Of a stretch of DNA of 13,388 nt, positions 7,613 through 9,913 are shown piece after piece. The stretch comes from Lachnospiraceae bacterium (GTDB lineage: Bacteria > Bacillota_A > Clostridia > Lachnospirales > Lachnospiraceae), in NCBI GenBank assembly GCA_016291475.1, contig JAEEXJ010000088.1, forward strand, positions 1-13,388, given 5' to 3'. Within the stretch, counting starts at the first letter, position 1. Every line of letters begins with the position of its first letter. The notes under the pieces are model-generated. The model worked only from the letters and a program-made list of their open reading frames with translations, had not been told where the DNA came from and did not search any database. The position numbers and the translations under genes are program-made.

Positions 7613-7663
7613 ACAGCAAATGTGTCTTTGAAAAGGCACGGCAGACTTAACGGGAGGTCTTAC

Positions 7664-8638
7664 ATGGATAAGATTAAATGGGGAATTCTGGGAACCGCCA
7701 ACATTGCAAGGTGGGCTACCATACCCGGAATAAAGAAGGCGGAAAATGCCGATCTTTATGCGATCGCAGGCAGAAATCCGGACAAAGCCAAAAAGTATAA
7801 AGACGAGTTCGGGTTTGAAGTATCCTACGGAAGCTATGATGAGCTTATAGCGGATCCTGCCGTACAGGCTGTTTATATTCCCCTTCCCAACGATCTGCAT
7901 CTTAAGTGGGTTACTCAGACTCTTAAGAATAAGAAACATGTCCTTTGTGAAAAGCCTCTTGCGCTTAATGCCGAGGAAGCGGCAGCGATGTACAAGACCG
8001 CGGAAGAAAACGGCGTACATCTTATGGAGGCTTATGCATATCTTCACAGTCCGTATGTGGAGAGCCTTAAATCTGATATTGAAAGCGGAATAATAGGTGA
8101 TGTGGATTATATAGAATCCGCGTTCATCACTCAGGGGTACAAGGAGGATTTCCGCCTTCACAAAGAATTCGGAGGCGGTGCAATGTATGACCTCGGCTGT
8201 TATTGCACCACCATGATATTAACCCTCATAGATTCCGAGCCTGAACTTGTAAAAGCGGTTGCGGAGTTCTCGGATCTCGGGGTGGATTTTAATACTGCGG
8301 CGATCATGCGGTTCAAGAACGGTGTAAGGGCATCGTTCAACATCGGAATGATCCTCGGAGAAAATACAAACTCACGATTTGACAGACTCTATATCCACGG
8401 AAGCAAAGGATGCATCAGATCCGAAGTTGAATACAACCAGGAAGGATGTGTCGGATATTTTGTCTGCAACAGTGACGGATGTTTTGAGAGAAAAATAAAT
8501 GTTCCGCATAATTACAAACTTGAAATAGAGCAGCTCGGAAGATGCATCTTAAATGGGGAAAAGCCGCATATCACTCCCGAGTTTTCAATAAAGAACGCCA
8601 AACTTATCGATACGGTACTTAAAGAAATTGGTTTTTAA
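7664..8638 (+). CDS. Gfo/Idh/MocA-family NAD(P)-dependent oxidoreductase
   Basis: A 324-residue cytoplasmic dehydrogenase of the glucose-fructose oxidoreductase/inositol dehydrogenase family. Residues 1-120 form the Rossmann domain: KWGILGTANIARW (5-17) is the dinucleotide loop, YIPLPNDLHLKW (71-82) follows, and HVLCEKPLAL (92-101) contains the family EKP motif, whose lysine (97) is catalytic in known members. The C-terminal alpha/beta domain has GGGAMYDLGCYC (170-181) at the position of the usual active-site DxGxH, with Cys-Tyr in place of the His region as in dihydrodiol-dehydrogenase-like members. ATG 7664 is chosen for GGGAGG (7652-7657); an in-frame GTG at 7622 has no such site. It begins 51 nt after the peroxidase stop with no terminator between, so it probably belongs to that operon. 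The substrate, likely a sugar or cyclitol, cannot be named. Confidence 0.94.
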   Translation: MDKIKWGILGTANIARWATIPGIKKAENADLYAIAGRNPDKAKKYKDEFGFEVSYGSYDELIADPAVQAVYIPLPNDLHLKWVTQTLKNKKHVLCEKPLALNAEEAAAMYKTAEENGVHLMEAYAYLHSPYVESLKSDIESGIIGDVDYIESAFITQGYKEDFRLHKEFGGGAMYDLGCYCTTMILTLIDSEPELVKAVAEFSDLGVDFNTAAIMRFKNGVRASFNIGMILGENTNSRFDRLYIHGSKGCIRSEVEYNQEGCVGYFVCNSDGCFERKINVPHNYKLEIEQLGRCILNGEKPHITPEFSIKNAKLIDTVLKEIGF

Positions 8639-8643
8639 TTCAG

Positions 8644-8857
8644 CGTAGGGATTTACATCTGTCCAAGGGGTGACGCGAATGCATAAGCTGTCGAGACTTC
8701 GATTTCTGCGAAAAAATGCGGCCGCCCGGCCCGAACAGCGTGAGTGGCCACGCGTCATGAGCTGAAACATGCCTTGTGAAGCATTTCCGCCTGAAATCGA
8801 AAAGCGAGACAGTTATGCGTCGCGGCAGGACCCGTGGGACAGATGTAAGTCCCTGCG
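8644..8857 (+). ncRNA. Candidate structured RNA or palindromic element, about 214 nt
   Basis: This gene-free stretch folds on itself almost completely. P1 is 21 continuous pairs (8644-8664 with 8837-8857). Next come GGGT/ACCC (8668-8671 with 8830-8833), an 11-bp helix with one bulged G (8681-8692 with 8808-8818), a 9-bp helix (8698-8706 with 8793-8801) and a split helix (8708-8710 with 8788-8790, 8714-8719 with 8781-8786). The apex has hairpins GCGTG/CACGC (8738-8742, 8749-8753) and CATG/CATG (8756-8759, 8768-8771). Three helix positions are U-G pairs only if the plus strand is transcribed (8646-8855, 8652-8849, 8680-8819); on the minus strand they would be A-C mismatches. It matches no riboswitch, SRP, tmRNA, RNase P or 6S pattern I know. 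It ends 13 nt before the AAGGAGG of the next gene, so it may be a 5' leader, an independent RNA or a MITE-like insertion. Confidence 0.55.
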
Positions 8858-8884
8858 AGCTTTGTAACTAAGGAGGGTATTTCC

Positions 8885-9913
8885 ATGAAAAAGAAAGCAT
8901 TGTTCATTGGGGGAACAGGCACTATAAGTACGGCGATCGTAAAGAGACTGACTAACGAACTCGATTGGGAAGTATGGGTCTTAAACAGGGGAAACAGAAA
9001 TGACGTACTTCCGGAATCGGTTCACAGTATTGTATGCGATGTTAACGATGAAGCTGCGGTGCTTGAAAAGATCGGTGATGCAACCTTTGATTGTGTATGT
9101 GAATTCATAGGTTTCCATGTATCACAGGTTGAAAGAGACTGCAGACTCTTTAAGGATAAAACAAAACAGTACATCTACATCAGTTCCGCATCCGCTTATC
9201 ATAAGCCGGCTGCAAATTATATCATCACGGAAGGCACATCTTTGGCGAATCCCTATTGGCAGTATTCAAGGGACAAGATCGAGTGCGAAGAATTCCTTAT
9301 GAAAAAATACAAAGAGGAAGGCTTCCCCGTAACCATAGTTCGCCCCAGCCATACATATGATGAGAGAAATGTTCCTCTGGGAGTACACGGAAAGCACGGT
9401 TTTTGGCAGGTGATCAAGAGAATGCAGGAAGGAAAGCCCGTTATAATACAGGGCGACGGATCGAGTCTTTGGACTGTAACCTGGAACGGAGATTTTGCAA
9501 TAGGTTATACAGGTCTTATGGGTAACAGAAAAGCAATCGGAGAAGCGTTTCAGATCACTTCAGACGAAGCTCTTACCTGGGACCAGATCTATCAGACGAT
9601 CGCAGATGTTCTCGGAGTTAAACTTAATGCTTATCACGTATCAACGGATTTCCTCCGTGCCGCGGGGGATAAGTACGGATTCGATTTTACGGGCTCGCTC
9701 CTCGGAGATAAATCCGTATCCGTTATTTTCGATAACAGTAAGTTAAAGAGAGTTGTTCCCGATATGGCTACCAATGTCAGATTCGATATGGGTGTAAAGA
9801 TTGCCCTGGACTATGTATTGTCGCATCCCGAATGTCAGGTGGAAGATCCCGAATTCGATGATTGGTGTGACCGGGTAATAGCGGCATTGGACAAAGCAAA
9901 AGAAATGATTTAG
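8885..9913 (+). CDS. NAD-dependent epimerase/dehydratase (extended SDR)
   Basis: A 342-residue cytoplasmic extended short-chain dehydrogenase/reductase. The N-terminal Rossmann loop is FIGGTGTIS (7-15), in which Ser15 stands where most members have the third Gly. YIYISSASAYHK (96-107) supplies the catalytic Ser/Thr region, and Y127-SRD-K131 is the YxxxK pair. VTIVRPSHTYD is the typical post-catalytic strand. The family oxidises and re-reduces nucleotide sugars or related sugars with bound NAD; this member resembles the subgroup near plant CSP41 proteins, and its substrate is unknown. AAGGAGGG (8870-8877) precedes the ATG. The structured element at 8644-8857 lies directly upstream, and no promoter was identified there. 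The stop codon overlaps the short palindrome at 9912-9942, beyond which the next enzyme starts. Confidence 0.94.
   Translation: MKKKALFIGGTGTISTAIVKRLTNELDWEVWVLNRGNRNDVLPESVHSIVCDVNDEAAVLEKIGDATFDCVCEFIGFHVSQVERDCRLFKDKTKQYIYISSASAYHKPAANYIITEGTSLANPYWQYSRDKIECEEFLMKKYKEEGFPVTIVRPSHTYDERNVPLGVHGKHGFWQVIKRMQEGKPVIIQGDGSSLWTVTWNGDFAIGYTGLMGNRKAIGEAFQITSDEALTWDQIYQTIADVLGVKLNAYHVSTDFLRAAGDKYGFDFTGSLLGDKSVSVIFDNSKLKRVVPDMATNVRFDMGVKIALDYVLSHPECQVEDPEFDDWCDRVIAALDKAKEMI

Follow-up and report, generated by a model that had tools for sequence, protein, structure and literature searches.

In the window, the whole 13,388-nucleotide stretch of a Lachnospiraceae bacterium contig (JAEEXJ010000088.1), a 214-base palindromic element lies between an oxidoreductase gene and an SDR gene on the same strand (Table 1). 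Its minimum free energy (MFE) on the + strand (8644-8857) was -109.7 kcal/mol, against -67.0 ± 4.5 kcal/mol for 200 dinucleotide shuffles (z = -9.57), none of which folded as well. The 214-base fold is real, and the description given in an earlier, sequence-only reading held up well: the 21 terminal bases at either end form an uninterrupted helix, the MFE structure contains 80 pairs where "over 50" had been counted, and the "three wobbles" were roughly right, there being five G-U pairs overall, of which two (8646/8855 and 8652/8849) belong to the closing helix. Since the opposite strand folds nearly as well (-97.4 kcal/mol, z = -9.23), a strand preference is not shown by the window copy alone. 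The element has a G+C fraction of 0.556, compared with 0.44 in the neighboring genes, and the ribosome binding site of the SDR gene (AAGGAGG) begins at 8870, at the distance stated before. Inside the closing helix, the repeated core contains a basal internal loop (GGGTGA../..GGCAGGACCC), a tandem-GA loop (CGAGACTTCG/CGAAAAGCGAG), and an apical hairpin (GGCCCGAAC..GTGAGTGGCC). As the earlier reading had supposed, no known RNA class was recognized: the window had no Rfam match at the gathering cutoff, positions 8600-8900 had none at E values up to 5, and neither tRNA nor tmRNA was detected. At the window site, the sole site examined for duplications, a clean target-site duplication was likewise absent, the imperfect repeat TTTTAATTCAG (8633-8643)/TTTGTAACTAAG (8861-8872) around the element not being counted as duplication evidence.

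Table 1. The element of the window, its parts, and the flanking genes.
Feature	Position	Strand	Remark
Upstream neighbor, Gfo/Idh/MocA oxidoreductase gene	7664..8638	+	Start is our choice; ORF opens at 7622
Left arm of the 21-bp closing helix	8644..8664	+	Site-specific; arms differ among copies with cores 97% like the window's
Repeated core, 166 nt	8668..8833	+	Found by comparison of copies
Right arm of the closing helix	8837..8857	+	Fold prediction
Downstream neighbor, NAD-dependent epimerase/SDR gene	8885..9913	+	Position kept where the element is inverted or missing

Searches with the 214-base query gave 8, 8, 16, and 11 matches in the genomes of four relatives, many of them spanning only about positions 25 to 190 of the query. 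What had been taken for a single object thus resolved, on comparison, into two layers: a repeated core and arms specific to the site. BLAST detected the core in 11 of 114 relatives, and a covariance model returned 117 core matches in 17 of the 31 genus genomes (1 to 17 per genome), a count that includes partial matches and one copy matched on both strands. When 397 genomes drawn from the family were searched under the stricter filters applied above 40 genomes, the core was found only in G001 and G028, both of the same genus. The core family is therefore genus-restricted and multicopy. Because assemblies seem to break at the hairpins, copy numbers may be undercounts; three contigs of G005 (L196, L199, and L228) stop at or inside the element, and most of the genomes compared are metagenome assemblies. 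Across the family, the core forms a long hairpin whose non-canonical internal loops are conserved, and its length ranges from about 120 to 235 nt, with a short variant (∼117 to 130 nt; L102, L106, L107, L110, L223, L231, L233-L238, L240, and L241) that is devoid of the apical GGCC hairpin and keeps the basal part and GCGGCATGAG. Neither an exact two-arm pattern scan of genome contigs and viral contigs nor blastn with the element against plasmids gave a match, and blastn against phages gave a single 26-base match (E = 0.9). The core had no Rfam match, and the unnamed family was not found among the matches listed in open-access full-text literature, which does not prove its absence from print.

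To describe the constraint on the core, an alignment of 102 matches was built by fitting to the covariance model, to which 100 loci were given, with weak or partial ones (such as L244-L249) omitted; it counts one copy twice (L084 378-506 is L223), and 101 copies were used for arms, orientation, and placement. Over 42 pairs, 95.4% of the cells pair and both-sided changes occur in 37 pairs, with a core covariation score of 0.384 compared with 0.145 after shuffling and at most 0.068 when the columns were slid by one to three. A MAFFT alignment of 28 copies also gave double changes in 22 of the 42 pairs. Moreover, G-U cells outnumbered A-C cells in the core stems (125 versus 55, or 109 versus 39 without the weakest pair), and the pair at the basal internal loop was A.G in 61 of 102 matches, G.A in 21, A.T in 10, and in other states in 10; turning the strand alone would not convert A.G into G.A. 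Thus, the plus-strand constraint proposed before, which cannot be read from the window copy, emerges at the level of the family. The G-U excess was similar in sense (21:10), antisense (28:9), and convergent (43:13) settings, with both L207 copies dropped and copies without context pooled, indicating that the constraint is independent of local transcription; an RNA constraint acting through the local transcript was rejected on the same ground. Judging from these substitution patterns, the + strand of the core is constrained as a folded single strand, and the molecule may be single-stranded DNA or RNA.

Such a strand-specific signal, present regardless of local transcription, is also what would be expected of dispersed structured RNAs that act in trans as a sister class to TwoAYGGAY, perhaps show GGA hairpins to CsrA, and are free in orientation because each copy has its own transcription, a reading that we regard as possible though rather doubtful. 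TwoAYGGAY (RF01731) is listed in the excerpt of PMC2864571 as a probable RNA that is probably not cis-regulatory, and the excerpt of PMC4333381 proposes CsrA binding from motif analysis and reports a tandem GA. In our genus, TwoAYGGAY is multicopy as well, occurring in 17 of the 31 genomes (13 of the 17 core carriers and 4 of the 14 others), and it follows the same plan, with a long stem whose outer part is variable (14 copies read) and with GGGACGGTTC-type arms in L347 and partly in L351. It differs from the core, which is without the two AYGGAY loops; the TwoAYGGAY model gave no match to the window stretch at E values up to 5 or to seven module-bearing loci of the family at E values up to 1, and in view of this missing score, the idea that the core is an unrecognized TwoAYGGAY was rejected. 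A module containing two GGA hairpins is nested in each of these seven loci (L003, L129, L133, L136, L195, L204, and L219), which favors the trans-acting reading, but most copies are without the module, and neither core nor module matches Rfam. The GTACANGGATGTAC of this module presumably resembles a selected CsrA site. CsrA was detected in 27 of the 31 genomes, and the four assemblies in which it is missing (G003, G005, G006, and G024), possibly through incompleteness, are all core carriers. The CsrA link is a lead and not a result.

A polar promoter, which such RNAs would call for, was not seen: TATAAT with at most one mismatch occurred on the 5' side in 19 and on the 3' side in 19 of the 97 copies with flanks long enough for the count, and this equality led us to reject a promoter at the core 5' end. 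The TATAAT-like hexamers had mirrored peaks, with start distances from the core of 15 to 17 on the 5' side (14 hexamers) and 13 to 15 on the 3' side (15 hexamers). In a related reading, which we hold to be unlikely, the core would be a mobile RNA scaffold, indifferent to orientation, that moves and inverts at the ends of genes within borrowed palindromes (RAYT-type or terminator hairpins) and acquires exchangeable GGA-hairpin modules; its copies would give each genome of the genus a shifting stock of dispersed CsrA sponges alongside TwoAYGGAY. As separate observations, TwoAYGGAY copies in G001-G004, G026, G028, and G029 often form opposite-strand pairs ∼290 to 415 bp apart with the minus copy first (for instance, G001:C1:262980-263142 on the - strand and 263272-263428 on the + strand), and in L108 1300-1800 (G001) a TwoAYGGAY copy (Rfam, 64.9 bits) adjoins a half-element, GGCAGGACCCGTGGGACAG, resembling the right end of the window's element.

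The placement of the 101 copies, with neighbors taken from ORF-finder calls, was uneven: 35 have converging neighbors and 4 diverging ones, codirectional genes enclose 19 copies in sense and 27 in antisense orientation, and 16 are without a call on one side; a long ORF spans the core in some frame in 4 copies. Since a circular chromosome has converging and diverging neighbors in equal number, 35 against 4 is a strong bias, among copies that are not independent of each other. The arms are complementary within copies (mean of 15.5, compared with 7.2 for arms randomly paired between copies, a null level raised by similar terminator arms); among the 94 copies with long flanks, complementarity exceeded the 95% null level in 48 and the 99% level in 10, being weak or absent in others. 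L085 and L089, with cores both 97% like the window's, have different arms (GGACATTTCAGTCGTTCC and GGGGACGGCTCTGCCATTTC), and hardly any arms extend beyond the basal stem in L179, L181, L187, L197, L201, and L213. By a crude pattern, terminator-type hairpins enclose 24 of the 101 copies, GGGGA-type sequence occurs on both sides of 13 and on one side of 18, and 46 show neither. The position at gene 3' ends and the terminator arms of one group would fit ordinary 3'-end hairpins, terminating transcription or protecting mRNA, that are maintained by palindrome correction and have no further role; this we consider improbable, because it leaves unexplained the conserved unpaired motifs, the A.G/G.A swaps, and an identity between orthologues of 96 to 99% in the cores against 86 to 94% in the flanks.

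Grouping the copies by both flanks gave 19 sites common to at least two genomes, one of the groups including two contigs of G019, and both orientations occur at 15 of these 19 sites; a scripted recount of all orthologous core pairs found 42 of 71 inverted. Because the core is turned at most shared sites compared, it is probably no switch for the neighboring gene. Both orientations at so many sites could suggest a phase-variable switch flipped by a site-specific recombinase, but we consider this very unlikely, as no fixed crossover sequence is common to the arms, the inverted pairs L179/L181 and L091/L093 have hardly any arms, and the polar promoter is not seen. In these two pairs, the arms also look too short for simple assembly error, though metagenome assemblies make up most of the genomes. 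Among the 12 mutual-best core pairs, six are inverted (L091/L093, L179/L181, L203/L205, L209/L219, L225/L226, and L237/L240), and in 9 the two cores resemble each other more closely than the flanks do (e.g., 98.8 versus 88.3%), the exceptions being L197/L201, L209/L219, and L225/L226. In many other inverted pairs, hand-picked from the arm comparison and including the window site, the closest core lies at a different site, so that another copy may also have taken the place of the original one. The two G019 contigs L184 and L186 have flanks ∼99% identical on each side with cores in opposite orientation, perhaps representing two strains.

At the window site itself, a search with the SDR protein returned 80 loci, of which L001 (Lachnospiraceae bacterium P6A3), L002, L003, and L004 are syntenic with the window. 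The element is reversed in L001 and L002, in the window's orientation with a basal stem ∼56 bp longer in L003, and missing, arms included, in L004, L254, and L255 (3 of the 7 genomes read). A comparison of the window with L002 places this inversion inside the arms: the left arm, G-T position included, is the same in both, and the sequence enclosed by the arms runs the other way. The copy at this site in L002 (9719-9953) has a different additional apical hairpin of ∼60 nt. The suggestion that the element is a cis-regulatory leader of the downstream SDR gene, prompted by its nearness to the ribosome binding site, was rejected and is now extremely unlikely, given the same-site inversion, the absence from three genomes, the unrelated genes next to the other copies, and the lack of a sense bias between codirectional genes.

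To follow the turnover of sites, ten probes were used to reach orthologous sites in the 31 genomes, yielding 87 fetched stretches, of which 85 (all but L278 and L289) were read. The core model at E values up to 0.1 found no core in the 87 stretches, indicating that there are no cores beyond the copies known before; this tells only that no core scores there, and the states of the sites (empty, remnant, or other hairpin) are by-eye readings. So read, remnants occur at 7 of the 10 sites (L261, L270, L271 [probable], L290, L292, L303, L318, L328, L329, L335, and L339), such as that of L318, in which perfect arms enclose CGCGGGTGGCGCG. Coreless GGGGAC-type hairpins stand at core sites P3, P4, P7, and P8 (L267, L269, L282, L316, and L319). 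Site P6 lies between convergent genes; of its 16 genomes, 10 show a single plain terminator hairpin and four show hairpin, core, and inverted hairpin; in G028, both hairpins enclose the remnant GCTGCAGGACCCGCAGAGC, and one further genome, at a contig end, differs.

We therefore favor, with moderate confidence, a non-autonomous, noncoding palindromic repeat resembling a REPIN turned inside out, which lies predominantly at gene 3' ends, owes its inversions and trimming to template switching, and is probably not a leader. Folding of the strand would take place at the replication fork, as single-stranded DNA, and also in read-through transcripts; a polymerase switching templates from one arm to the other would homogenize the arms and turn the core around, and slippage would remove the core. 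The perfect site-specific arms, inverted cores, reverse-repeated hairpins, and hairpin-shaped remnants point to these processes. Excerpts of PMC8604942 and PMC8794818 describe template switching as repeatable and reversible, leaving homogenized arms and inverted spacers; the spacer inversions given there are of a few bases in yeast genes, whereas here the spacers are about 120 to 235 bp. According to excerpts of PMC3116915 and PMC3733652, REPINs consist of inverted palindromes around a spacer, form a single-stranded DNA hairpin with compensatory changes, and are extragenic, between unidirectional and converging genes, and TIRs with a GGGGWSAS motif occur at some tyrosine transposases; the excerpt of PMC3733652 adds a GTAG or CGTC tag at one end of REP/REPIN. 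Our element resembles them in the hairpin with compensatory changes, the extragenic position, and the placement between codirectional and converging genes, and a part of the copies (48 of 94) has clearly complementary arms; but REPINs combine conserved ends with a variable spacer, and the present family has variable ends around a conserved, structured inner core. By description only, as excerpted, bcr1 of the Bacillus cereus group is also alike (∼150 to 170 bp, structured, intergenic, with mobile traits). Of the three options offered by the sequence-only reading, a MITE-like element is the closest, with copies at many unrelated loci, although the window site differs from a MITE in having no clean target-site duplication; by the rule set in that reading, the unrelated loci speak for a MITE, and the missing clean duplications and strong covariation for an RNA.

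Spread in trans might be by a single-stranded DNA transposase of the RAYT/TIRYT kind acting on GGGGAC-type arms, as with REPINs, or by another enzyme. Y1 domains were detected in 4 of the 16 genomes tested out of 31 (3 among 14 carriers, 1 among 2 non-carriers), which may set the family apart from a REPIN/RAYT system, and a Y1 transposase as sole mobilizer was rejected since it is missing from 11 of the 14 carrier assemblies tested. Similarly, a reverse transcriptase as mobilizer was rejected, being present in 8 of the 31 genomes and 3 of the 17 carriers and thus missing from 14 carriers. The RAYT-type Y1 genes of G001 (L141) and G002 (L138) have GGGGACG hairpins on both sides, which adds to the likeness to REPINs, some site arms are GGGGAC palindromes like those flanking RAYT genes, and the pattern GGGGACGKWYY clearly exceeds its reverse in 8 of 9 genomes (209 versus 16 in G002), the exception being G004 (14 versus 11). 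Thus, RAYTs may move the arms in some species. Apart from orthologues, the flanks of unrelated copies have no common DNA. Against the repeat reading stand the metagenomic origin of most assemblies, the fact that no transposase ties in and that neither a clean target duplication nor a demonstrably recent insertion was seen, a core identity that exceeds arm identity, opposite to a REPIN, and a conservation of the core above that of the flanks in 9 of 12 pairs, beyond what a selfish repeat would need; candidates for what keeps the core sequence are a mobility factor and an RNA-binding protein.

The window element belongs to an unnamed family of structured palindromic repeats that is restricted to one genus of rumen bacteria and often changes orientation. 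For annotation, a strongly covarying hairpin next to a gene is not necessarily a leader of that gene. If our reading is true, the REPIN plan would here be turned inside out, the cargo being conserved and the ends variable, and the family would provide natural examples of a large folded element that has reversed again and again at fixed sites (15 of 19) with its core conserved, so that orientation would be separable from function and template-switch inversion would be open to study on long spacers. These findings would also bear on the nature of TwoAYGGAY RNAs and on whether dispersed CsrA-binding RNAs occur in Clostridia.
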